Shown piece by piece: positions 5,892 through 24,324 of a stretch of DNA of 64,000 nt. The notes below the pieces were generated by a model, which saw nothing but the letters and a program-made list of their open reading frames with translations, was not told where the DNA came from and searched no databases. The stretch comes from Curtobacterium sp. MCBA15_012. GTDB lineage: Bacteria; Actinomycetota; Actinomycetes; Actinomycetales; Microbacteriaceae. Position 1 is the first letter of the stretch. Every line of letters starts with the position of its first letter. Position numbers and translations under genes: made by a program. The DNA is taken from positions 2,728,001 to 2,792,000 of the forward strand of contig NZ_CP126267.1 in assembly GCF_001864935.2 (NCBI RefSeq), in the 5' to 3' direction.

Positions 5892-6017
5892 GTGGCAGAG
5901 CGTACCGCCCGGGTCGTCCGGCTCCGCAACCCCTCCGACCGGTGGCGAGCGGGCCCCGCTCCCCGCTGCGGGAAGCCGCACGCCCCGCCGGAACATCCCG
6001 TCACCGCGACGGGGGAG

Positions 6018-6047
6018 TTGACACCCCGGCACGGAACACCCCATCAT
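6018..6047 (+). promoter_or_regulatory. Promoter of the monosaccharide ABC transporter operon
   Basis: A perfect -35 TTGACA (6018-6023), an 18-base spacer and CATCAT (6042-6047) as -10. The palindromic operator starts at the last base of the -10 and covers the expected start site, a textbook repression layout. Confidence 0.65.
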
Positions 6048-6060
6048 GTGAGCGCTCACA
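6047..6060. promoter_or_regulatory. LacI-type operator of the ABC transporter operon
   Basis: A 14-base perfect palindrome TGTGAGCGCTCACA with the same core as the araB operators. It overlaps the likely transcription start of the transporter operon. Confidence 0.85.
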
Positions 6061-6139
6061 CGAGCACATCCCAGCGGGGCACAGCAGCCCCAGCACCTGA
6101 GCGCGTCGACGTCGACGCGAGAGGAACAGAGGTACTTCG

Positions 6140-7270
6140 ATGATGAAGCGCAGGATCATCGCGGGGGTCGCGGCCCTCGGCATCGCGTTCTCCCTGGCAG
6201 CATGCTCGGCCGGTGGCCGTGGTGCGACCGACAGCGGCGCCGGCAGCGGCGACAACAAGGGCGCGCTCGTCGGCGTGGCCATGCCCACCAAGGTCTCCGA
6301 GCGGTGGATCAAGGACGGCGACGCCGTCAAGAGCGACCTCGAGAAGGCCGGCTACAAGGTCGACCTCGAGTACGGCGACAACAAGGTCCAGCAGCAGGCC
6401 CAGCAGGTCAGCAACATGATCACCAAGGGCGCGAAGGTCCTGATCATCGCGTCGATCGACGGTGGCGCCCTGTCCGACCAGCTCGACGCCGCCGCCAAGG
6501 CCGGCATCAAGGTGATCTCGTACGACCGCCTGCTCACCGGCAACAAGAACGTCGACTACTACGTGTCGTTCGACAACGAGAAGGTCGGCGTCGACCAGGC
6601 CAACTCGCTGCTGACCGGCCTCGGGCTGCTCGACAAGGACGGCAAGAAGACGGACGAGAAGGGTCCGTTCAACATCGAGGTGTTCGCCGGCTCGCCCGAC
6701 GACAACAACGCCACGTTCTTCTTCAACGGCGCGATGAAGACCCTCAAGCCGTACCTCGAGGACGGCACGCTGAAGATCGGCTCCGGCCAGGACGGCTTCA
6801 CGCAGGCCGCCACGCAGCAGTGGGACCCGGCGACCGCCAAGGCCCGCATGCAGAACCTCGTCGCGAAGTCGTACTCCGGCGGCACCAAGCTCGACGGTGT
6901 CCTGTCGCCCTACGACGGCATGTCGATCGGCATCATCTCGGCCCTGCAGGGCGCCGGCTACGGCTCGGGTGACCGTCCCCTCCCGGTGATCACCGGTCAG
7001 GACGCCGAGGCCGCCTCGGTCAAGTCGATCATCGCGGGCCAGCAGTACTCCACCATCTACAAGGACACGCGCAAGCTCGCGAAGCAGTCCGCGACGATGG
7101 CCGAGGACCTGCTCGCCGGCAAGAAGCCCGAGGTCAACGACACCAAGAGCTACGACAACAAGGTCAAGGTCGTCCCGACCTACCTGTTCCAGCCCACGGT
7201 CGTCACGAAGGACAACTACAAGGAAGTCCTCGTCGACTCGGGGTACTACACCGAGGCCGACCTCAAGTAG
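6140..7270 (+). CDS. ChvE-like sugar-binding lipoprotein of an ABC importer
   Basis: A 376-residue extracytoplasmic solute-binding protein. It has a lipoprotein signal peptide with lipobox LAAC (acylated Cys about residue 22) followed by a Gly/Ser-rich linker and a family 1 periplasmic-binding domain ([40 protein letters not shown]). This pattern is typical of ChvE/MmsC-type multiple monosaccharide receptors. Two ATG codons are adjacent; the first follows an aggaacagagg ribosome-binding stretch. It is the first gene of an operon with ATPase and permease genes, separated from the ATPase by a very strong hairpin. Arabinose is the likely ligand from context. Confidence 0.92.
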
Positions 7271-7284
7271 GTCCTGCCCCATCT

Positions 7285-7332
7285 GACGGACAGGAGGCGC
7301 GGTGCCAGCGCGCACCGCGCCTCCTGTCCGTC
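7285..7332. repeat. Long inverted repeat, family A copy 1 (intraoperonic)
   Basis: A perfect 21-base stem with a 6-base loop, containing the family core GGAGGCGCGGTGC and its complement. It lies between the binding-protein gene and the ATPase gene of one operon, where it could terminate part of the transcripts or stabilise the upstream mRNA so that binding protein is made in excess. Related copies are at 35761, 41551, 53548 and 63260. Confidence 0.85.
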
Positions 7333-7374
7333 TCCACCAGCGCGCGCACGCGCGCACGACGGAAAGGCGTCCAC

Positions 7375-8912
<1,538 letters not shown>

Positions 8913-8916
<4 letters not shown>

Positions 8917-10094
8917 ACGCGCTCAAGTCCGCCGCCGGCTACCTCACCGGGCAGCTCCGACAGATCGGCCTGTTCATCGCGCTGATCGTCATCGTGATCT
9001 TCTTCCAGGCGACGACCGGCGGGATCACCCTCGCGCCGATCAACGTCTCGAACCTGATCGTCCAGAACAGCTACATCCTCATCCTCGCCATCGGCATGGT
9101 GATGGTCATCATCGCGGGCCACATCGACCTGTCGGTCGGCTCGGTCGTCGCCTTCACGGGCGCCATGGCCGGCGTGATGATCACGCAGTGGGGCATCCCG
9201 TGGCCGATCGCGGTCGTCCTGTGCCTCGTGCTCGGTGGCCTCGTGGGCGCCTGGCAGGGCTTCTGGATCGCCTACTTCGGCATCCCGGCGTTCATCGTGA
9301 CGCTGGCGGGCATGCTCGCCTTCCGCGGTGCGGCGCAGATCGTCCTGCAGAACCAGCAGATCTCACCCTTCCCGGACGGCTTCCGCTCGCTCGGCTCCGG
9401 CTTCCTGCCGTCGTTCGGCACCTCGGGCTACGAGCCGCTGACGATGATCCTCGGCTTCGCGGCCGCCGCGATCATGGTCGTCGTCTCGCTGCGCGGTCGC
9501 GCCACCCGCCGCAAGTACCAGCTCGAGAGCGAGCCGCTCGTGTGGTTCCTCGTCAAGCTCGCGTTCGGCGTCGTGCTCGTCGTCTACGTGTCGCTCCTGC
9601 TCGCCAGCTACAACGGCACCCCGATCGTGCTCGTCGTGCTCGGCCTGCTCGTGGTCGTCTACTCGGTCGTCATGCGCAGCGCGGTCTTCGGTCGCCACGT
9701 GTACGCGATCGGTGGCAACGCCCTCGCGGCGCAGCTGTCCGGCGTGAAGACCAAGCGCGTCACGTTCCTGCTCTTCGTGAACATGGGCGTCATCGCGGCC
9801 CTGGCGGGCGTGGTCTTCACCGGCCAGCTCAACCTCGCCGCCCCGGGTGCCGGCAACGGCTTCGAGCTCGACGCCATCGCGGCCGTGTTCATCGGTGGCG
9901 CAGCCGTCACCGGCGGCATCGGCACGGTGCCGGGCGCGATCATCGGTGGTCTCATCATCGGCATCCTGAACAACGGCATGTCGATCCTCGGTGTCGGTAC
10001 CGAGTACCAGTCGCTCATCAAGGGCCTGGTGCTGCTCGCCGCCGTCGCGTTCGACGTGTTCAACAAGCGTCGGGCCGCGTCCGCGCGCAAGTAG
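8913..10094 (+). CDS. gguB: Monosaccharide ABC importer permease
   Basis: A 393-residue polytopic membrane protein of the branched-chain/ribose-type permease family. It contains [36 protein letters not shown] and [19 protein letters not shown], all conserved in MmsB/XylH-like permeases. The length suits the longer Ggu/Mms group with extra transmembrane segments. The start overlaps the ATPase stop (ATGA). The gene ends 18 bases before a family B inverted repeat shared with the convergent amylase gene. Confidence 0.93.
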
Positions 10095-14728: not shown

Positions 14729-15061
14729 GTGCCCGCGAGCGAACCCGACGACCACTTCTTCGTCGTCGACGGCCGCCGGTGGCGCCGGACCGACCCCGCG
14801 CTCCCCGAGGACCTCGCCGCGGCGCTCCGGTCCCACCTCGGCCGCGGGCGGGGCGGGGTCCGGCAGGCGAAGCGCGCGGGCGACGACGCCGCGCTCGCTG
14901 CGGCCCGGCACCGGAACGGCCTGGCGAAGCACGGGCTCGGCGAACGCGGTCCGGAGTGGTGGACGCGCCCCGAGGCCGACCGGGTCGCCGACGCCCGGCG
15001 GGCGCTCGAGGAGCTCGACGCGCTCGACACTCTCGACGTTCCCGACTCGCACCGATCGTGA
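14729..15061 (+). CDS. Small conserved actinobacterial protein ('biopolymer transporter Tol' of databases)
   Basis: A 110-residue basic protein with VDGRRWRRTDPALPED, SHLGRGRGGVRQAKRAGDD and NGLAKHGLGERG. These blocks match a short, widely conserved protein that databases label 'biopolymer transporter Tol', apparently without experimental support; no transmembrane segment is present, so that name should not be trusted. The GTG start was chosen because homologues begin around P-x-S-x-P-D-D-H. It is the last normal-GC gene before the low-GC cluster. Confidence 0.75.
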   Translation: MPASEPDDHFFVVDGRRWRRTDPALPEDLAAALRSHLGRGRGGVRQAKRAGDDAALAAARHRNGLAKHGLGERGPEWWTRPEADRVADARRALEELDALDTLDVPDSHRS

Positions 15062-15191
15062 CTGCGGCGATCCGCCCGCTTCAACTGGAGCGGGGTCTCG
15101 ACGCTCAGGTCCATCACCGCAGCGGCCCTGCGGAGGTGACTTCGTCAGGTCAGTCGCGGATCTGGCACATCCTGCAAGCACGGTTCCGCTC

Positions 15192-16019
15192 TCACGACTT
15201 GAGGCACAGCTCGAGCACGGAGACCTCGTGTTCAACCTCGTGAGCCGAACTCGGAAGATCGTAGAACCGCCCCAGGAACTGCGGCGCGATGAGGTGAGCT
15301 GGTAACGGTGCTCTCCAACTGGCAAGACGGGAGACGACCAGATCGGATCGTGTTTCGATGATCGCGTCGATCTCCGAAGCGAAAGCCTCGGAGCGAGTCA
15401 TGATCACTTTTTCTGCGTGCACACCGACCGCATCGACAAGCGATCCGTAGAGTCCGAATTCATCGCTCATGGTGACTTGCCCGACCCTTGGGATCACAGA
15501 ACCGCTGGGGAAGTAAGGAGGGTTGCTCACTGCCACGTCGAATTCCTGCCCCCGCTCGAGGCTTCTGTAGTCGGAAAGCACGAACGCACCATGAACCACT
15601 TGATCGATCCCGTCGAAATTTTGCTCAGCAAGCCGAAGTGCGCTCTCGCTGAGGTCGAGCAGCGTGATGGCCTCCAGCCCATCGAGCGCGGCGATGAGGT
15701 TCAGTCCGACCACGCCCGAGCCGCAACCGACGTCGATCAGAGTCCGCGTCGACCCTCCAGCGAGGCGTGCGCGCGCCGCTCGCACCAGCCGGAAGGCGTC
15801 GAGCGTGATTTGATACGCACCGGGAGCCCAGACGATCCGCGTCTCCTCGAAGATGACCTCCAGTCTCAACGCAAGTCCGGACGAGACGTAGCGAACAGCG
15901 TCTGTCAGCAGAGACCGTGGGGCGCCTCGCTCGTAGCTCCTGACCAAGCGCCCTCCGTGGAACACGCGTGTCCGGACAGAGGAGAGATCCGATGTCAACT
16001 CGATCTCGATGTCGAACAT
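15192..16019 (-). CDS. NPPY-motif SAM-dependent methyltransferase
   Basis: A 275-residue class I methyltransferase. Motif I is LIDVGCGSGVVGLN (about residues 93-106) and the catalytic NPPY lies in VAVSNPPYFPSG. This motif is used by enzymes that methylate amide, amino or ring nitrogens (PrmC, TrmN6, RlmG types), so N-methylation is likely. It is not a plain PrmC: the N-terminal 85 residues do not resemble the PrmC helical domain. ATG 16019 is preceded by tgaggagagg, an excellent ribosome-binding site; an ATG at 16043 would overlap the acetyltransferase. Last gene of the low-GC operon, so probably a tailoring enzyme. Confidence 0.82.
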   Translation of the reverse strand: MFDIEIELTSDLSSVRTRVFHGGRLVRSYERGAPRSLLTDAVRYVSSGLALRLEVIFEETRIVWAPGAYQITLDAFRLVRAARARLAGGSTRTLIDVGCGSGVVGLNLIAALDGLEAITLLDLSESALRLAEQNFDGIDQVVHGAFVLSDYRSLERGQEFDVAVSNPPYFPSGSVIPRVGQVTMSDEFGLYGSLVDAVGVHAEKVIMTRSEAFASEIDAIIETRSDLVVSRLASWRAPLPAHLIAPQFLGRFYDLPSSAHEVEHEVSVLELCLKS

Positions 16020-16029
16020 CCGCCTCTCC

Positions 16030-16584
16030 TCACTTGAACACATCGGTCATGAGCAATGAGAAGAGCCGCATGTCCGTGCGGCCAGAACGAAGGACTCCCG
16101 CAGAGCGCAGCAGACCCTCTTCTCGGAAACCTGCTTTCTGAGCTACACGGGCTGACGCCGAGTTACCCTGCGCCACACGCAGCTCGACCCGATCGAAGCC
16201 GACCGAGAACGCGTAGTTCGACAAGGCCGCGACCGCACGGCCGGCGATGCCCTTCCCCCGCTCGTTCTCAGCCAACCAGTAGCTGACCTCTACGATGCCT
16301 TCCCTCCAATTCGGGTTCTTCAGCGACATACAACCGACGAAGGACCCGTACAAGCGAATCGCGAACTGAACCCCGGAACCGCTGAGCCGATAGGCCTCAG
16401 CACCCCCTTCGCACCAGCTACGAGCGATAGCCCGCGTGTACGGCGAAGGCAACGGAATCCAGCGATTCACCGTCTCGTCCTGACAGGCCAGGAAACAATC
16501 ATCGGCGTCCTCGGCACGGAGAGGCGTGAGGGAGATCCCGTCACCGGCGTCGATCTCCTCAGCTGGGAGCACTTGCGCTTTCAT
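16030..16584 (-). CDS. GNAT N-acetyltransferase (RimJ/RimL-like)
   Basis: A 184-residue GNAT enzyme that should transfer an acetyl (or acyl) group from CoA to an amine. ISLTPLRAEDADDC opens the fold, and YWLAENERGKGIAGRAVAAL contains the acetyl-CoA-binding R-G-K-G-I-A-G loop; RVAQGNSASARVAQKAGFREEG is the RimJ/RimL hallmark. The ATG, with a gaggtcaagg ribosome-binding site, lies inside the end of the exporter gene (26-base overlap). In this cluster it may tailor the product or protect the producer from it; both are inference. Confidence 0.85.
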   Translation of the reverse strand: MKAQVLPAEEIDAGDGISLTPLRAEDADDCFLACQDETVNRWIPLPSPYTRAIARSWCEGGAEAYRLSGSGVQFAIRLYGSFVGCMSLKNPNWREGIVEVSYWLAENERGKGIAGRAVAALSNYAFSVGFDRVELRVAQGNSASARVAQKAGFREEGLLRSAGVLRSGRTDMRLFSLLMTDVFK

Positions 16585-17788
16585 CCTTGACCTCCATCAA
16601 TCTCGTGGTTCTTTGCATCGCGAAGACAACCATGCACATCGCTGCGGACACAGCCGCTGCTCTGATCACCGGTGCCGGACCGATGCGCTCGGACAGCCCA
16701 CCTACGACGAGGTACGAAAGCGGGAGGAGGAATGTCGAGGGGAGCATCAGCAGAGCGCTGGTCCGACCGAGCAACTCTGCAGGAATGTTTGTCTGCAGCA
16801 CCGTGTCGAAGAGCACTTTTCCCAGCTCGAGACTCGCCCCGCCGATGCAGCACCCCAGGAGACAGATCGCGAGGCGCTCTTGAGCTACACCCAACAAAGC
16901 GACCCCGAAGAGGGCTACGAACAGGCTTGCGCGGACCGCTGCCCGTCCCCGCGCCAGAACCGGTGCGGACAAGGCACCGATCAGGCCGCCGATCGCGAAG
17001 GCACCGAGCACCGCCCCGAACGCACTCGCTCCCCACGCGTCTCGCACGAGTACTGGCCCGAGCACCGTCCATGCCCCGACCGCCAGAACCGTCTGCAGAG
17101 CCCCGGCCGTCGCGTACCGCCACAGCCAGCTGGTGCACAACAGAGCAGCCGCACCCTCGCGAAGGCTTCGCGCATAGGTTCGTGGAGTCAAGGCTGGCCG
17201 CTTGTCCGTCCCGCCGACGTACAGCAGCCGGCCGAGGAATAGTGCGCTCATCCCGAAAGCCGCGCAGTTCAGGAGAATCCCCCACACGGGTGCCACGATG
17301 AGCAGGAGGAGAGCTGCGAGTGCGGGTCCCGCGATCATGGTGGAGCTCCGTGCAAGAGAGGACAGGCTGTTCGCTGAAGCGAGATCGTCGCTCGCGACGA
17401 TCGCAATCAGGAGCGCCCGTGCAGACGGGGAGAACACTGCCTCGGCCAAGCCAGTGACCAGAACGGCCGCGACCGCGACCGGGAAGCAGCCCGTCGATAT
17501 CCCAACAGCCACGAGAAGAGTGGTCAGAACCCGCAGTAAGTCGGCCCAGATCATGAGGTTCCGTGGCTCGAGATGCACACTCAATCCCCCGAGCACGAGA
17601 TAACCAAGGAAGAGACCGATCGCGCGAGCAGCGAGTATCTCCGCGACGCTCGAGGCGTCGCCGCCGTGCTCCAGCACCGCGAGACTCGCGACCACGGTCA
17701 TGAGCGACGCACCCATCAGCCCCGTCACCTGACTCAACCAGAACCGCGAGAACGCCCTGTTGCGGCGCAGCAGTGCGAACTGATTCAC
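16559..17788 (-). CDS. MFS exporter of the low-GC cluster
   Basis: A 409-residue major facilitator with about 12 predicted membrane segments, beginning MNQFALLRRNRAFSRFWLSQ, a start typical of drug and siderophore efflux MFS proteins (MefA/EntS-like). The internal ADLLRVLTTLLVAV motif and SPSARALLIAIV fit this group. The GTG start overlaps the nucleotidyltransferase stop by 4 bases (GTGA), and the C-terminus overlaps the acetyltransferase gene. It is the only transporter in the operon and would carry the product out of the cell (inference). Confidence 0.85.
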   Translation of the reverse strand: MNQFALLRRNRAFSRFWLSQVTGLMGASLMTVVASLAVLEHGGDASSVAEILAARAIGLFLGYLVLGGLSVHLEPRNLMIWADLLRVLTTLLVAVGISTGCFPVAVAAVLVTGLAEAVFSPSARALLIAIVASDDLASANSLSSLARSSTMIAGPALAALLLLIVAPVWGILLNCAAFGMSALFLGRLLYVGGTDKRPALTPRTYARSLREGAAALLCTSWLWRYATAGALQTVLAVGAWTVLGPVLVRDAWGASAFGAVLGAFAIGGLIGALSAPVLARGRAAVRASLFVALFGVALLGVAQERLAICLLGCCIGGASLELGKVLFDTVLQTNIPAELLGRTSALLMLPSTFLLPLSYLVVGGLSERIGPAPVIRAAAVSAAMCMVVFAMQRTTRLMEVKDESASAPS

Positions 17789-18516
17789 GTGCTGGCAACC
17801 CCGATCTGCTCGTCGGCGAGCCGCAACAGGGCGTCGGTGCCGCAGTCCTGATAGGTCTTCGGCAGGTCAGCAGCGACGAAGCGGGCGGAGGAAGCCAAGA
17901 TCGCCCCGAGAACACTCCGTCCGACGCTGAGGTTGGCGAGGAGCGCCTCCGATGTCCTGAAGGCGTAGCGCCCGATGTACCGCGCCTGCACTCCCTGGGG
18001 CGCGTCGCTCCTCCGCGCCCACTTCGCTTCCCCAGCCCCGATGTCCATCATGAGGGGGTCGAACTCCCCCGGCGGGAAGCGCTCGTCGTCTTCCAGGACG
18101 ACTTCAGCCGACCGACTCAACCCCAGTCGAATTGTCTCTGTGAGGCGAGCCGCCGAGGAGCCGACCACCGGCAAGTTGAACCGTTCCGCGATCGCTGAGT
18201 AGCATCTCGCTCCTGCCGAGCCCAGACACAATTCGTCTGTATGCAGCACCACGACGATCTCGCCGACCGAAACTTCACGCGCGATCGATCGAGCGGGCGT
18301 ATCTGCCTTCGCTACGGAGATACGCACTCCGCGGAGCCAAGGCTCGTGCTCGAAGGCAGTCAGCGCATCGTCACGGACCAGGATCGTGGTTTCCAATCCT
18401 TCAGTCTCCTCAAGCACCCACTCGAGCAACGCTCTTCCTGCGACCTGGACGAGCGCCTTCGGACCGGGCGACGAGACCCGGGTGCCGAGACCGCCCGCCA
18501 GGATGATGGCCCTCAC
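17785..18516 (-). CDS. Sugar-phosphate nucleotidyltransferase-like protein
   Basis: A 243-residue protein starting VRAIILAGGLGTR, the NTP-binding signature of the GlmU/RmlA/MobA superfamily, followed by PKALVQVAGRALLEW with the conserved Pro-Lys pair. These enzymes activate sugar phosphates or similar phosphates with an NTP. GTG 18516 overlaps the HisG-like stop by 4 bases; the open frame runs 37 codons further upstream but that stretch is unlike the family. It may make a nucleotide-activated building block, or nucleotidylate the product of the neighbouring phosphoribosyltransferase-like protein (inference). Confidence 0.8.
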   Translation of the reverse strand: MRAIILAGGLGTRVSSPGPKALVQVAGRALLEWVLEETEGLETTILVRDDALTAFEHEPWLRGVRISVAKADTPARSIAREVSVGEIVVVLHTDELCLGSAGARCYSAIAERFNLPVVGSSAARLTETIRLGLSRSAEVVLEDDERFPPGEFDPLMMDIGAGEAKWARRSDAPQGVQARYIGRYAFRTSEALLANLSVGRSVLGAILASSARFVAADLPKTYQDCGTDALLRLADEQIGVAST

Positions 18517-19190
18517 CGGAGCGCCGAATCCATACGCGCCGTCACACCGGTGAGCAACTGCAGTGCCCGGGCATCTTTCGCAATCCGCCGGGACCGGTAG
18601 ATCCGTCCCGAACTCTCGAACAAGCACTCAGCGATCCGCATACCGTTCGCCTCGAGGCTCAGGCCGGTCATGACTGCATCGATTGCTAGGTCGGCCATAC
18701 CCAGACTGACGAACACCTCGGCCGCTCCGTCGATCGGAACGAGCGTCATACGACGGCGCAGGGGGTGACGTCGGATCCAGTCGCTGGCGATGTTCGGGTA
18801 CTGGCTGACGACGGTGAGAGATCGGGTGACATCCTCGAGCTCTTCATCGTCGTCACGCCGCACAACGCACAACTTCGTGCGCTGGATGCCGAGGTCCTTC
18901 ACCATGCGCAACTGCGACGCTGTCCCCGACTCGACGACGTAGTCGTGCGCGGAGACGCACGCATCCAGGGCGCCGCTCGCTACTAACCTCGGAAGGTCCG
19001 TGGATCTGGCGAGGACGACCAGGATTCCGTCTGCACGGAAAGTGAGACTCCTACTGTCGGAGCCCCATCCCTTCCAGTCGAGAGCCTCCCGCACTTCCGC
19101 ACGCAACCTGCCCTGGTTCGGCACCCCGAATCGTAGAGCCTCTCTTCGCTCGACGCGTGGCAGATCAAGGAACGATCTCGCTTCACTCAT
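18513..19190 (-). CDS. HisG-like (ATP phosphoribosyltransferase fold) protein
   Basis: A 225-residue relative of the HisG catalytic domain. LRFGVPNQGRL matches the family N-terminus, VSQYPNIASDWIRRH matches the 'yPNl' block, and AAEVFVSLGMADLAIDAVMTGLSLEANGM matches the PRPP-binding region with its conserved G-x-A-D-x-x-x-D and T-G-x-x-L-x-x-N-G. Length fits the short HisG form without a regulatory domain. No other his gene is nearby, so it is a paralogue recruited to another pathway. ATG 19190 was chosen over a GTG two codons upstream; it overlaps the CHAT gene end by 8 bases. Substrate is unknown: it could phosphoribosylate a nucleobase, nucleotide or the peptide. Confidence 0.75.
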   Translation of the reverse strand: MSEARSFLDLPRVERREALRFGVPNQGRLRAEVREALDWKGWGSDSRSLTFRADGILVVLARSTDLPRLVASGALDACVSAHDYVVESGTASQLRMVKDLGIQRTKLCVVRRDDDEELEDVTRSLTVVSQYPNIASDWIRRHPLRRRMTLVPIDGAAEVFVSLGMADLAIDAVMTGLSLEANGMRIAECLFESSGRIYRSRRIAKDARALQLLTGVTARMDSALR

Positions 19191-20634
19191 CCACACTTCT
19201 TTCTATCTCGAACACCTCGCGCAAGTACGCCAGGCGATCGGTACCGAAGATGACCACTCGCACCGAGCCGATGTCAGGCCCTGCGTCGCCGGGCACTGCG
19301 AACAACACATCACTCGGCCGCTCTTCGAAACGTTCGCTCTGTTCGACGACCGGAACTCTCCTCGACTTGTCCCGAACTTGTACGAAGACAGTCCCCGATG
19401 TCGTCTCGTCGGACATCGGTAGGCGCACCAAGTGACGTTCACCAGCCAGTACAGGTCTGTGCACATCCAAGAAGGTCGCGGGACCATCGCCCTGGGCGGA
19501 AGCCCGCTTGACGCCGCAACCGCTGCACCAAGAGATCAACCAGCGCTGCGCCACACCGCTCGTCGTTTGCCAGACCGTCCCCGAACACATGGCGCAGAAT
19601 CGTCCGGAATGTGTCGAGCTGCTCGGTGCGAGCCGCGCTCTACCGATCATCGCTTTCTGGAGAACGTCTCCGTGACCCGATCCTGACCCGAGTAGGCCCT
19701 CTTCGACGCAGTGCTCCCAGCCAGTCCTGATCGCGCGATGAATGCGATCGCGCAGGTCGGCCTGCGGCGTCGCTGCGGAGAAGTATGCTCTCGTCTCCAG
19801 TGTCGCGAGCCCGGATATCAACCTCCCCTGCTCAGCAAGTCGTCGGCCAAGCGCGCTGTTGGCGCCCACGTGCGCAACGGCGGCCAGGATGACCTCTTCG
19901 ATGGCCCGTAATCGCTTCACCTGAGACGGCGCTCTCGTCGGGAAGGACCGTGGCAGGTTCGACGAGGCGTCCGGGTGTTCTTCGGCCTCGTCCCCCCCAG
20001 CGGGCACCAGGAGGACGTACGCGCCATCCACCTCCGGTAGATCGTTCAAGTTCTGGACGATGTTCTCGACCGAGTCACCGGCCATCCAGCTGTCCTCGAT
20101 GACAGCGATCTGCCTTCGGTTGACGATCACCTGCCTCGTCGAAGCAACCACCTTCGAGAACCCAGCTTCAAGGAGCGTCCACGCGAGACTCAGGCCCGGC
20201 GAGCCGAGCTGGGCTGCGAGGTTTGCGCTGTTGCAAGAAAGGAGGAAACACACGTCGCCTCGCATGTTCGCCGCAAACTTCACGCAGCGCACCGCTCGCG
20301 ATTTTCGGCACGCCCCGCCTGCTCTGCAGCCGTCAGCCGCGCTGTCCGTGCCCACCGAGACGCGCGCGCCACACAGACACGAATCGCCGAGCAGGAGATG
20401 CAAGCCGTCGCCGTGGCCGGCAAGCAAGTACCCTCGCTCGGCCCGAGAAGCACGCCCTCGCAGTTCGAAGCGCGACTGCCAGTTCGGCGGGGGCGCCGTT
20501 GCAACGGCGAGAGCGCCGCCTGGAAGCCGGACTCGGACGTACGGGGGCTTGGAGTCGCGTCTTGCTCGAGATGCAACACCCTCCAGCTCATCGAAGGTCA
20601 GCCGCACTTCCACCGCCTCAGACTGCACGATCAC
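19183..20634 (-). CDS. CHAT-domain (caspase-like) protein with two Cys clusters
   Basis: A 483-residue protein unlike its family's usual TPR-linked forms. Residues about 20-225 form a CHAT/caspase-like domain: His 74 in LAGHGDGLHLLLG and Cys 134 in FLLSCNSANLA are the expected catalytic pair, followed by LLEAGFSKVVAST. Between them sits a CLCG...C...C cluster (Cys 86, 88, 103, 109), a possible metal site. The C-terminal half has a zinc ribbon, CAMC-x19-CSGC. Several GTG starts are possible (20676, 20634, 20628, 20613); 20634 gives a 17-base overlap with the DUF1152 gene. It is the best candidate for the leader peptidase of the cluster (inference). Confidence 0.72.
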   Translation of the reverse strand: MIVQSEAVEVRLTFDELEGVASRARRDSKPPYVRVRLPGGALAVATAPPPNWQSRFELRGRASRAERGYLLAGHGDGLHLLLGDSCLCGARVSVGTDSAADGCRAGGACRKSRAVRCVKFAANMRGDVCFLLSCNSANLAAQLGSPGLSLAWTLLEAGFSKVVASTRQVIVNRRQIAVIEDSWMAGDSVENIVQNLNDLPEVDGAYVLLVPAGGDEAEEHPDASSNLPRSFPTRAPSQVKRLRAIEEVILAAVAHVGANSALGRRLAEQGRLISGLATLETRAYFSAATPQADLRDRIHRAIRTGWEHCVEEGLLGSGSGHGDVLQKAMIGRARLAPSSSTHSGRFCAMCSGTVWQTTSGVAQRWLISWCSGCGVKRASAQGDGPATFLDVHRPVLAGERHLVRLPMSDETTSGTVFVQVRDKSRRVPVVEQSERFEERPSDVLFAVPGDAGPDIGSVRVVIFGTDRLAYLREVFEIERSVDE

Positions 20635-21628
20635 TGCCGATCGCCTCGATCCTCGACAGAAGACCGTCGCCAACACTTCGCACCGTCAACAACTGCCTCC
20701 CGTAACGTTGCTGGAACCGGTTGGTGACGAAATCACCTACACGGCAATCGTCGACCGCTTCTCGCCGGGCCTGGATCGGTAGGACGGAAAGGCGAGATGC
20801 GTTTGCACGCATCTCATCGACGTACCCGCTGTCGACGAGATCGACATTGGCATCCCGAATCCCCCTGGCGGCGGGGCGCACGGCGAGCCCAGGATTTCGG
20901 GTCAACGCTGTCAGCGGTAGACGAACAGCTCGGGCGGCGAAACAGTTGAGGTGCACTGGCCGCCCTCGCCCATCGCACCACACTCGGCCGCGGCGACCCG
21001 AAAGGGCGCTGAGCCAAAGCCTGCTCGCTTCGGAGTCGACGGCGTCGAACACGTCCAGGAGCTTCGGTGCCCCCGCATCGATACGGCAGTCTTCGTGCGG
21101 CATCTCGGACAGGCGGACGGTGATCTCTACCTGAGTCAGCTCGTTGTCGACCCCCGGGCCGGCCACGATCACATCAGCGGCCCGGATCTGGTCGGCGTCG
21201 ATCACGAGACGAATTGCAAGTGCTTCGAGCAAGGGACTCGTCAAGCCCTCATGAGAAGCCTCGCCCAGTATGTCTCCCCCCGCATCGACCAGAACCACGC
21301 GCTCGTGGACGTCCTTCGAGACCAACGCGTTCAACACGCCGGCGGACCAGGACAAGTCGTCGACATCGAGCAGGTGCAAGCTCCCGGGTAGGTTCTGGGC
21401 CAGAGTGCGCACCTGATCCCACCTGCCGTCGATGGTGAACGTCTCAGGGTCGACCCGGCCATGAGCCGCTCGGTCTACCCCATGCAGTGCCGACCATGGG
21501 CTGTAGCCGGCAGACAGAGCGTCACGACGCCAAGCGAACGTGACAAAACTGTCGATCGGACTCACCTCAGAAAGGGCGGCAGCGACGATGAGATCGCCCG
21601 GCCCTCCGGCGGCCATGTACACGGTCAC
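20618..21628 (-). CDS. DUF1152-family protein
   Basis: A 336-residue protein with YMAAGGPGDLIVAAAL at the N-terminus (a glycine loop like a nucleotide-binding G-G-x-G-D) and VVLVDAGGDILGEASHEGLTSP in the middle, the signature block of DUF1152. The fold is probably Rossmann-like; no reaction is known for the family. The C-terminal 100 residues include a Cys (NCFAARAV) and an Arg-rich segment. GTG 21628 lies 6 bases after a ggggag ribosome-binding site; GTG 21622 is an alternative. It follows the small peptide gene and the strong hairpin, making it the first enzyme gene of the operon. Confidence 0.75.
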   Translation of the reverse strand: MTVYMAAGGPGDLIVAAALSEVSPIDSFVTFAWRRDALSAGYSPWSALHGVDRAAHGRVDPETFTIDGRWDQVRTLAQNLPGSLHLLDVDDLSWSAGVLNALVSKDVHERVVLVDAGGDILGEASHEGLTSPLLEALAIRLVIDADQIRAADVIVAGPGVDNELTQVEITVRLSEMPHEDCRIDAGAPKLLDVFDAVDSEASRLWLSALSGRRGRVWCDGRGRPVHLNCFAARAVRLPLTALTRNPGLAVRPAARGIRDANVDLVDSGYVDEMRANASRLSVLPIQARREAVDDCRVGDFVTNRFQQRYGRQLLTVRSVGDGLLSRIEAIGSDRAV

Positions 21629-21648
21629 TGTTCTCCCCAGTGGTAGGG

Positions 21649-21684
21649 CGGCTCGCTCCCCGTGTCGTGGAGGGGAGCGAGCCG
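21649..21684 (-). terminator. Strong hairpin between peptide gene and DUF1152 gene (attenuator or processing site)
   Basis: A perfect 13-base stem (CGGCTCGCTCCCC with its complement) and 10-base loop, starting 6 bases after the stop of the 30-residue peptide gene. Such hairpins after RiPP precursor genes lower expression of the enzymes relative to the precursor; that role here is inference. Confidence 0.75.
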
Positions 21685-21689
21685 TGAAT

Positions 21690-21782
21690 TCACCAGCTCA
21701 TCAAGTTGTCCTCGGGAAGCTGTGCGATGTCGATCGACTCGATCTCCTCGATCAGCGCTTCAAGAGCGTTCTTCGTTTCCAC
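21690..21782 (-). CDS. Putative RiPP-like precursor peptide, 30 residues
   Basis: A short gene missed by length cut-offs. It encodes 30 residues: N-terminal METKNALEAL, then an acidic IEEIESIDIAQ stretch, ending LPEDNLMSW. The GTG start is the only one possible, because an in-frame TGA lies three codons upstream, and an aagggggg ribosome-binding site stands 9 bases before it. The acidic, probably helical N-terminal two thirds look like a leader and the C-terminal NLMSW-type tail like a core. It is the first gene of the low-GC operon and is followed by a 13-base-pair hairpin, the usual layout for a ribosomal peptide precursor. Function is inferred only from layout and composition. Confidence 0.65.
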   Translation of the reverse strand: METKNALEALIEEIESIDIAQLPEDNLMSW

Positions 21783-21835
21783 GGCGATTCACCCCCCTTC
21801 TCCACTCGCGCCACGCTGTAGCGGCAGTCTCACCC

Positions 21836-21848
21836 TACTATCGTAGTA
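21836..21848. promoter_or_regulatory. Short AT-rich inverted repeat in the cluster promoter region
   Basis: TACTATCGTAGTA, five-base arms around TCG, lies 54 bases upstream of the peptide start codon. On the minus strand it contains TACGAT, a fair -10 hexamer. It may be promoter, operator or both. Confidence 0.35.
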
Positions 21849-22407
21849 CGTCACATGCCACATCTCGGTTCGTGGTCGTGGCTGCCCACGGACAGCGCGT
21901 TTGTCGAGGGGAGGTGGCGGCAGCCGTGTGGCGTCCATCGGCGGACGTCATCCTTCGTTCTCCACGACCTGGCCGGTCTGAGTGCTTCCGCCCGGCTCGG
22001 TCGAGTCGAACGGCGCCATGGAGTCGATTCGAGACGCAGAACTCAGGGTTCCCTTCGGTTGACGTCGAGCGACTCGCGCCGCGGTCGGGATCGACGCGGA
22101 ATCGGAGGATGTGTCGAGCCTGGACGACCGTCAAAAGCTGCCTGGTGCACACCGCCAGAACAGTGGTCTAACAGGTCCTCCGAGACGCTCGTACACGTCG
22201 AGTCGTTCCCCGTGGTTCTGCCGGCAAGCCCCGTCTCGGTCCGAGAGGAGAGGACGTTGGACGCCGGCGAAGGTGTTGTGAGATTGGCCTCGATGGGAGA
22301 GCAGGTCCGGCTGAACCCTTCGGGCTGTGCCGATCACGCGAACCGCGCAGGCAGCTACACCCGGAGTACAGCGCTTGGTTGCCCCCGGGCGTCGGCCTAC
22401 GCTCGCG
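21849..22407. other. 560-base low-GC stretch without a recognisable gene
   Basis: Open frames in both directions exist but none resembles a known family and none has a convincing ribosome-binding site. The GC content stays low until about 22390 and then jumps at the beta-galactosidase 3' end. It probably holds the cluster promoter and a decayed flank of the acquired segment. Confidence 0.5.
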
Positions 22408-24324
22408 CTACGCCTCGGTGTGGCCGAGGTCGGGCTCGGTGAGCAGGCAGACCCGGCGTGCGGCCGACGCGTGCACCTCGAACACGACGACCTCGTTGCG
22501 GCCGGCCCGCAGCACCGGACCCGGCACGGCGAGGGTCCGCTGCGGCCCGCGCGACCAGTGCCGGCCGAGGCAGAACCCGTTGACCCAGGCGACGCCCTTC
22601 CGGAAGCCGTCGAGCGACAGGTACCGGTCCCCCGCCTCGGCGAGCTCGAACGCCCCCGCGGCGAACACTGGCCCGGCGAGCACGTCGCCGTCGGTCGGGA
22701 CCGCCTCGGCGAGCAGGGACAGCGCGGCGGGGGCGACCGGGTCGAGGGCGAGCGGCGACGCCGTCCACCGGGCGACCGGGACCCCGTCGACGGCGACCCC
22801 GCCGAGCAGGCCCTTCGGCTCGCCGATGCGGGGGCCGTAGTCGACCCGACCCTGGTCCTCGACGAGGAGCTCGAGCGTGCCGGTGACCGGCGGGAGCGCG
22901 ACGGCCCGGTCGTGGTGCTCGCGTTCGAGCACGCCGACCACGACGCCGTCGACGGAGACGACCGCACGGTCGCGGACCTCGGTGCCGACGGTGAGGACGC
23001 CGCCGTCCGGCAGGTCGACCTCGGCGCGGTACAGCACGAAGCCGCTGGCCGCCCCGAGCGCGTCGAACGTCGGCGGCTCGTCGTGCGTCGACCAGTCGGT
23101 GAGCGCGGGCAGCAGGGACCGCAGCGACGCGACCCGGTCGAGGCGGACGGCGACGTCCGCGGCGGGCGCGGGGCGCGCCTCCCGGCCGGTGCCGGACGCA
23201 CCCGGTGCCGACGCACCCGGTGCCGACGCGACCGGTGCCGACGCACCCGGCGCGGAGCCAGCTGCTCCGGATGCCAGCGCGGCCGGCGCGTCCTCGTCCA
23301 GGTGACCGGACCCGCCCGGCTGCATCGAGGCGGGCAGCGGCGGGACGGGCGCGTAGCGCTCGATCACCGCGCGGAACGCGTGGAACTTGTCGGTGGGGCG
23401 ACCGGCTTCGTCGAGCGGTGCGTCGTAGTCGTACGACGTCGCGATCGGCCGGTAGACGCCCTTGTCGTTCGCGCCGTTCGTGAAGCCGAAGTTCGTGCCC
23501 CCGTGGAACATGTAGATGTTCACGGAGCCGCCGGCGGCCAGCAGGACGTCGAGGTCCTCGGCGCTCGCGGACGCGGGCGTGGTGTGGTGGTGCTCGCCCC
23601 AGCTGTCGAACCAGCCGTCCCAGAACTCCGAGCACATGAGCGGACCGGTGGGCTGGGCCTGGCGCAGGCGGGCGAGCCGCTCGGTGGACCTCGAGCCGAA
23701 GGACCCGGTCTTGTGCAGCGACGGCAGCGACCCGTCCTCGAGCATGGTGCCCATCGGCTGGTCGACGCTCGTGAACGGCACGGTCAGCCCGACGTCGCGG
23801 TGCATCTGCTCGAGCTTCGTCAGGTACACGGGGTCGGAGCCGTACGCGCCGTACTCGTTCTCGACCTGCACGAGCACGATCGGCCCGCCCTGGTCGACCT
23901 GCCGTGGGACGAGCACGGGGGCGAGCTGCTCCAGGTACTGCCGCACGGCGGCCAGGAAGCCGGGCTCGTCGCGGCGCACACCCACGGTGCCGTCCGCGAA
24001 GAGCCAGTACGGCAGGCCGCCGTTCGACCACTCGGCGCAGATGTACGGGCCGGGGCGGACGATGGCGTGCATGCCCTCGGCGGCGACGAGGTCGAGGAAC
24101 CGCCCGAGGTCGAGGCCACCGGTCAGGTCGAACTCGCCGGGACGCGGCGCGTGGGCGTTCCACGCGACGTAGGTCTCGATGGTGTTGAGGCCCATCAGCC
24201 GGGCCTTGCGGATCCGGTCCTGCCACAGGTCGGGGTGGACGCGGAAGTAGTGGATCGCGCCGGAGAGCACCCGGTGCGGCTCGCCGTCGAGCAGGAAGTC
24301 GGTGTCGCCGATGGCGAAGCGCAT
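22408..24324 (-). CDS. GH35 beta-galactosidase
   Basis: A 638-residue family 35 glycoside hydrolase without signal peptide. SGAIHYFRVHPDLWQDRI and GPYICAEWSNGGLPYWL are family landmarks; the acid/base Glu lies in VQVENEYGAYG and the nucleophile Glu in MCSEFWDGWFDSWG. The catalytic barrel ends near residue 330; an Ala/Pro/Gly/Ser linker encoded by 15-base tandem repeats follows, then jelly-roll-like domains. It would release galactose from imported galacto-oligosaccharides. A gagaggg ribosome-binding site precedes the ATG. It is the last gene of an operon (two permeases, binding protein, enzyme) and a hairpin separates it from the binding-protein gene. Confidence 0.93.
   Translation of the reverse strand: MRFAIGDTDFLLDGEPHRVLSGAIHYFRVHPDLWQDRIRKARLMGLNTIETYVAWNAHAPRPGEFDLTGGLDLGRFLDLVAAEGMHAIVRPGPYICAEWSNGGLPYWLFADGTVGVRRDEPGFLAAVRQYLEQLAPVLVPRQVDQGGPIVLVQVENEYGAYGSDPVYLTKLEQMHRDVGLTVPFTSVDQPMGTMLEDGSLPSLHKTGSFGSRSTERLARLRQAQPTGPLMCSEFWDGWFDSWGEHHHTTPASASAEDLDVLLAAGGSVNIYMFHGGTNFGFTNGANDKGVYRPIATSYDYDAPLDEAGRPTDKFHAFRAVIERYAPVPPLPASMQPGGSGHLDEDAPAALASGAAGSAPGASAPVASAPGASAPGASGTGREARPAPAADVAVRLDRVASLRSLLPALTDWSTHDEPPTFDALGAASGFVLYRAEVDLPDGGVLTVGTEVRDRAVVSVDGVVVGVLEREHHDRAVALPPVTGTLELLVEDQGRVDYGPRIGEPKGLLGGVAVDGVPVARWTASPLALDPVAPAALSLLAEAVPTDGDVLAGPVFAAGAFELAEAGDRYLSLDGFRKGVAWVNGFCLGRHWSRGPQRTLAVPGPVLRAGRNEVVVFEVHASAARRVCLLTEPDLGHTEA
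23195..23254. repeat. 15-base tandem repeat inside the beta-galactosidase gene
   Basis: Four copies of a GACGCACCCGGTGCC-type unit, the last two with one or three changes. On the minus strand they encode repeats of an Ala/Pro/Gly/Ser pentapeptide in an interdomain linker, so copy number may vary between strains. Confidence 0.8.

Follow-up and report, generated by a model that had tools for sequence, protein, structure and literature searches.

The described peptide pathways closest to the locus considered here are those of microcin C and crocagin. In the microcin C system, a precursor is accompanied by a nucleotidyltransferase of ThiF-like type, an MFS exporter and, for immunity, a GNAT protein of the MccE2 type (PMC9239234). 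The crocagin paper contains neither the term "phosphoribosyl" nor "nucleotidyl" (PMC10070186). We analysed a 64,000-nucleotide stretch of Curtobacterium sp. MCBA15_012 (contig NZ_CP126267.1; hereafter the window), in which eight packed genes at 15192-21782, all on the − strand, encode a 30-residue peptide and seven proteins, one of them a HisG-like phosphoribosyltransferase. We consider it probable that these genes form a self-contained, horizontally moved biosynthetic cassette of the ribosomally synthesized and post-translationally modified peptide (RiPP) type. RiPP operons are typically laid out in this way, with a short precursor gene at the front, then a hairpin, then genes for tailoring, a protease-like protein and export.

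A cassette shared by two genera

From its 5′ end the locus runs in the order 30-residue peptide, DUF1152, CHAT-like, HisG-like, nucleotidyltransferase, MFS, GNAT and PrmC-like methyltransferase. An earlier note on this DNA had described eight leftward open reading frames (ORFs) in a block of lower GC, and both observations hold: all eight frames are present where it placed them, on the − strand, and GC is 0.636 in the cassette vs 0.727 and 0.707 in the flanks. The features are as follows, with identities given to the Microbacterium copy described below.

15047..22405, no strand: approximate extent of the inserted cassette, about 7.36 kb; flanks near each other without the cassette in related Curtobacterium
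21690..21782, − strand: putative precursor peptide gene, METKNALEALIEEIESIDIAQLPEDNLMSW, GTG start; syntenic homologue at L088 357-259; strain variant D25G
21649..21684, − strand: perfect hairpin, 13-bp stem and 10-nt loop, without a T-run; 13-bp counterpart in the same position in Microbacterium, L088 221-252
20618..21628, − strand: DUF1152 protein, 336 aa; PF06626, 89.9 bits (cut-off 27); relatives P0002 (47%) and P0003 (44%)
19183..20634 (open frame to 20676), − strand: putative Cys protease of CHAT-like type, 483 aa (equal to P0004), carrying a CxxC..CxxC pair; named from motifs; 37% over 482 columns
18513..19190, − strand: HisG-like phosphoribosyltransferase, 225 aa; PF01634, 91.9 bits (cut-off 25.5), and TIGR00070, 94.6 (cut-off 75.75); family A2, own clade; 54% over 184 columns
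17785..18516 (open frame to 18627), − strand: MobA/GlmU-like nucleotidyltransferase; NTP_transf_3 (PF12804), 36.8 bits (cut-off 27); 33% over 236 columns
16559..17788, − strand: MFS transporter, putative exporter; MFS_1 (PF07690), 54.5 bits (cut-off 33.4), with TIGR00900 under cut-off; 48% over 401 columns
16030..16584, − strand: GNAT acetyltransferase, RimL/ArsN1-like; PF13302, 95.1 bits (cut-off 25.4), the best NCBIfam models being ArsN1 and RimL-type, under cut-off; 56% over 154 columns
15192..16019 (open frame to 16043), − strand: PrmC/HemK-like methyltransferase with an NPPY motif; MTS (PF05175), 45.3 bits (cut-off 23), the best NCBIfam model being PrmC (TIGR03534) at 59.2, far under 199.1; 37% over 280 columns

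Likely starts were judged from sequence for the CHAT-like (20634), HisG-like (19190), nucleotidyltransferase (18516, MRAIILAGGLGTR) and methyltransferase (16019) genes. With these, consecutive genes from DUF1152/CHAT-like to MFS/GNAT overlap by 17, 8, 4, 4 and 26 bp, and gaps are found between peptide and DUF1152 (61 bp) and upstream of the methyltransferase (10 bp). A promoter scan returned no sigma-70-type site.

The syntenic place was compared in 15 Curtobacterium genomes: G539, marked as the same species, and 14 of other species. A beta-galactosidase gene neighbouring the cassette is present in all 60 genus genomes searched. None of the 14 other-species regions gave a blastn match inside window 15047-22397, and both immediate flanks are present without the cassette in 12 of them, 22 to 1146 bases apart; the remaining two matched the left flank only from further out (L072, from 13552) or the right flank only (L079). 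The eight genes, together with some 600 bases upstream of them, thus entered as one unit. No direct repeats of note were found at the cassette ends in the window. The cassette region of Curtobacterium sp. UCD-KPL2560 (NZ_MCIG01000026.1) is 99.4% identical to the window over 18.5 kb, and a contig scan with two N-terminal patterns returned a single locus, in the same species. A second lower-GC stretch of the window, 6001-10000 (0.65-0.68), has matches in the majority of these 14 other-species regions.

A counterpart occurs in a second genus. One of 365 genomes of genus g64 matches the seven-sequence HisG-like alignment (A2) at E ≤ 1e-25, and its locus (L087/L088) holds the complete set of eight genes, with order and strand as in the window. 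We infer that this genus is Microbacterium, from a database label and from similarity of the his region: the HisG-like protein of the locus includes, from residue 2, an exact copy of P0008, whose label is unclassified Microbacterium, and when five genomes were compared with the his region of Microbacterium NZ_CP072877, one genome of the genus (G401) came nearest (79% over 6.5 kb), its two congeners being no nearer than the pair from genus g63. A pair of 328-bp direct repeats, 91% identical, brackets the Microbacterium cassette (joined L087+L088, 13323-13650 and 20389-20716); the repeats take in the end of a DUF981 gene and suggest a recombination-type insertion. The earlier note had proposed looking for DUF1152, CHAT-like and HisG-like homologues along with a short ORF whose tail resembles that of the peptide; all four stand at the same place in this second genus, and its proposal of a RiPP-like architecture is strengthened by their co-occurrence.

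Putative precursor peptide and hairpin

Just ahead of the GTG start of the window peptide lie an in-frame stop and a Shine-Dalgarno-like stretch, AGAAGGGGGG. Its Microbacterium counterpart, the first gene there, is MTVANAEINDLIAEIESIDISAPSADWKPASW. Both peptides have EIESIDI in common (LI.EIESIDI), differ in the middle and end in Ser-Trp. The C-terminal Trp is found in three of three peptides (two Curtobacterium strains of one species, plus Microbacterium), and the UCD-KPL2560 peptide departs from that of the window by a single change, D25G, within the presumed core. This is the pattern of a conserved leader and a variable core, seen in three sequences of which two come from one species. The Microbacterium peptide was located by its position and the significance tests were made afterwards: the pair has a global score of 48, with a next-best score of 9 among 196 Microbacterium short ORFs (20-60 aa), and 0 of 20000 shuffles reached 48. 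In the reverse search of the 64-kb window, the peptide scored 48 and the runner-up among 198 short ORFs scored 7.

The hairpin between the peptide and DUF1152 genes, unmentioned in the earlier note, is present in both genera. The 101-nt hairpin region of the window has a z-score of −3.1, with 2 of 200 dinucleotide shuffles folding equally well. Against 300 mononucleotide shuffles each, the whole spacer folds at −35.4 kcal/mol in the window (mean −17.0) and at −32.6 kcal/mol in Microbacterium (mean −21.0), and no shuffle (0/300) was as good in either case.

The HisG-like enzyme and its partners

The host carries a second, canonical-type HisG gene, longer than that of the cassette (a 312-aa frame vs 225 aa), and the cassette protein is thus a paralogue. 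Six relatives at 43-54% identity, two of them labelled Microbacterium, bring family A2 to seven members, and in a HisG tree the family forms its own clade with support of 99/99. Beyond it, the nearest other match in 59 relatives searched is 36% identical, the best other HisG match among the matches listed for 396 phylum genomes has E 9.7e-18 and 29% identity, and the plasmid search gave 17 records, the best at 30.1% identity. Viral contigs searched with the family returned none.

The cassette protein resembles HisG (ATP phosphoribosyltransferase) in passing the model cut-offs and in keeping the loop for phosphoribosyl pyrophosphate (PRPP) and a catalytic Arg. The window protein and 6 of 7 database copies retain the whole loop, DAVMTG.[ST]L..N, and Arg47, invariant in all seven HisG-like copies, aligns with chain residue 57 of 5m8h, which, allowing a one-residue offset, we take to be Arg56 of Psychrobacter HisG. 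Arg56 is proposed to stabilise pyrophosphate departure (PMC9734150), and Arg29 and Arg32 are described as equivalent (PMC10795190). Unlike HisG, the cassette gene lies outside a his operon, belongs to a separate clade and lacks the N-terminal motif Lys: where the four listed Protein Data Bank matches that span the motif read SKG or NKG, 7/7 HisG-like copies have Gln in place of the Lys. With the PRPP loop and Arg kept and the motif Lys changed, PRPP chemistry with an altered acceptor is plausible.

HisG paralogues outside the his operon also occur beside a gene for a MazG-type pyrophosphohydrolase, a partner that sets them apart from the cassette. One is on Streptomyces anulatus plasmid NZ_CP109414.1 (L062 8015-15949), in a stretch that, judged from annotation, also has AIR-synthase-like, VOC, kinase and phosphatase genes, the first of these being a further difference. 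The other is in Curtobacterium G021 (L044 9700-11036), where tblastn found none of the other seven cassette genes nearby. These paralogues perhaps belong to a separate nucleoside-type pathway.

The nucleotidyltransferase keeps LAGG.G.R and the motif Lys in both copies. Among 149 relatives, 60 genomes matched it, all but its own with short and weak matches (best other E 1.3e-7). In the CHAT-like protein, the motifs GHGDG (H74) and SCNS..QLGSP (C134) contain the His and Cys that are invariant in the two copies. An hhalign comparison with five CHAT domains gave a weak match confined to the Cys motif (probability 7.6%, E 0.0046), and a homologue search of about 8000 candidates returned no relative. 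A protein search of the same size found at least two DUF1152 relatives besides the query, the P0002 and P0003 sequences listed above. Best Protein Data Bank sequence matches for the DUF1152 and CHAT-like proteins have E 0.73 or worse, and plasmid searches with these two and the nucleotidyltransferase gave no match.

Close DUF1152 relatives were found in the own genome alone among 398 family genomes; there were none in 149 relatives (two weak matches) and none in 396 phylum genomes, 12 of which carry a distant DUF1152, at 13 places. DUF1152 was tried as a marker of the cluster and rejected: tblastn with the eight proteins around these 13 places and two weaker ones found no other cluster gene nearby, the lone exception being a GNAT match of generic kind at an edge of L041. 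The presence of DUF1152 is thus not enough to mark the cluster. In two genomes that are Streptomyces-like by an inferred name (genus g65), a distant DUF1152 gene has a radical SAM gene as its neighbour, with genes for two ATP-grasp proteins, one of them amino-acid-ligase-like, close by (L031 9616-14526 and L035 4111-10228); the second stretch additionally has an MFS gene. These are possibly another biosynthetic cluster with DUF1152.

Readings of the pathway and comparison with known systems

Several observations weigh against a RiPP-type cassette or against parts of it. The syntenic loci known are two, in three genomes, and the eight genes of the two Curtobacterium strains differ by 4 synonymous and 7 non-synonymous changes, which give no selection signal either way. 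Judged by tblastn alone, the peptide pair falls short of significance (E 0.09). RiPP recognition elements (RREs), the precursor-recognition domains, are common in RiPP pathways but not universal; a Pfam search of the eight proteins listed no PqqD/RRE match at E up to 10, although RREs can escape detection. Of the domains assigned in the earlier note, DUF1152, HisG, nucleotidyltransferase, MFS, GNAT and methyltransferase are borne out by Pfam or NCBIfam matches, and CHAT is not: neither copy matches Pfam (PF12770) at E up to 10, and the protein is therefore named CHAT-like only. AlphaFold models of the DUF1152 protein (from three sequences, predicted local distance difference test 43.4) and of the CHAT-like protein (from a single sequence, 43.3) are too poor to use. 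The Microbacterium DUF1152 gene is broken by a frame change in the assembly (L087, about 19543-19552), its two frames being 41% and 37% identical to the window protein; the interruption may be a sequencing error or decay. Likewise, the HisG-like protein of UCD-KPL2560 (L016 11191-11874) has L163P, and P175 replaces the PRPP-loop Thr in database copy P0005, changes that may be errors or decay. Several long branches meet in the HisG tree, which leaves the inner order of the HisG-like clade unsure.

We set these points against the shared gene order, the insertion and the peptide pair, and favour the RiPP-type cassette. How it would work is a more tentative matter, and the chemistry sketched in the earlier note, with a phosphoribosyl or nucleotide group put on the peptide, CHAT trimming, and acetylation or methylation, is equally tentative. 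The hairpin would set a high ratio of precursor to enzymes. Using PRPP, the HisG-like enzyme would phosphoribosylate the core, at the C-terminal Trp or another nitrogen, and the nucleotidyltransferase would cap the 5′-phosphate with a nucleoside monophosphate to give a peptidyl nucleotide. DUF1152, which adjoins the precursor in both loci, could be a core-modifying or precursor-binding protein; the CHAT-like protein would cut off the leader, the methyltransferase and GNAT would decorate the product or make it harmless to the host, and its export would fall to the MFS protein. Transfer of a phosphoribosyl or nucleotidyl group onto the peptide itself we regard as plausible, though less likely than not. 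Equally speculative is the full proposal of a RiPP class in which a HisG-descended enzyme puts phosphoribose on the peptide (for example on N1 of the C-terminal Trp) and a MobA-like enzyme converts it to a peptide-linked nucleoside diphosphate ribose, yielding a nucleotide peptide of the Trojan-horse type along a route with no relation to that of microcin C. If true, it would mean new peptide-modification chemistry and a role for DUF1152. With a single precursor and seven further genes, the pathway is compact and can be rebuilt; the leader EIESIDI and the HisG signature VPNQGRL offer handles in the search for more loci.

The peptide could instead serve as a scaffold: its C-terminal Ser-Trp, or just the Trp, would be modified and excised as a small alkaloid or nucleoside-like molecule and not a peptidyl nucleotide. 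This possibility we hold only tentatively. Ser-Trp is the part of the presumed core common to all three peptides, and the CHAT-like protease could free it. PQQ and mycofactocin are small molecules cut from a ribosomal scaffold peptide, and the core Trp of crocagin is C-terminal. Crocagin is made on Tyr and Trp of its precursor core (PMC10070186). On the other side, none of the eight proteins shows a dioxygenase or a radical SAM domain in Pfam or NCBIfam.

It is improbable that the short ORF is not a substrate at all but an attenuator-type regulatory leader of a nucleoside or other small-molecule pathway. It does open the operon and is followed by a hairpin, and the two HisG-like genes beside MazG-type genes resemble nucleoside pathways; yet conserved EIESIDI and Ser-Trp around a variable middle look more like a leader and core than like a run of regulatory codons, the peptide has no His codons, and the hairpin lacks a T-run and is not listed as a terminator, the sole Rfam match in 15000-22500 being under the gathering score and inside the methyltransferase gene. 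Still more remote is a non-biosynthetic defence or stress module that joins a CHAT protease to enzymes of nucleotide metabolism: CHAT proteases are found in defence systems and the cassette is a sparsely distributed insertion, but MFS and GNAT genes fit such a module poorly, and PADLOC, run on seven window proteins and the Microbacterium CHAT-like protein, matched the methyltransferase alone (mad2, 44.8 bits, residues 74-178), which we read as the general methyltransferase part.

A search of open-licence PMC literature, judged by titles and the starts of abstracts, found no RiPP class with a HisG-like phosphoribosyltransferase, DUF1152 and a CHAT-like protease, nor any naming of DUF1152. The earlier note knew no RiPP class with this set, and the two classes examined here, microcin C and crocagin, do not fit. 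Crocagin came into consideration as an identity through the terminal Trp of the peptide and was dropped, as the proteins do not match. The likeness lies in a core Trp, a leader-removing hydrolase and a methyltransferase (PMC10070186); the cassette differs in having no dioxygenase (CgnC) domain and no CgnB/CgnE-like sign, there being no CgnB/E profile to search with. To microcin C the likeness is functional: a short precursor and genes for a nucleotidyltransferase, a putative MFS exporter and a GNAT. The cassette departs from it in lacking a ThiF-like MccB (no Pfam ThiF match among the eight proteins) and in a precursor that ends in Trp, where that of microcin C ends in Asn; its nucleotidyltransferase is MobA/GlmU-like, and the HisG-like, DUF1152 and CHAT-like genes are additions of its own.

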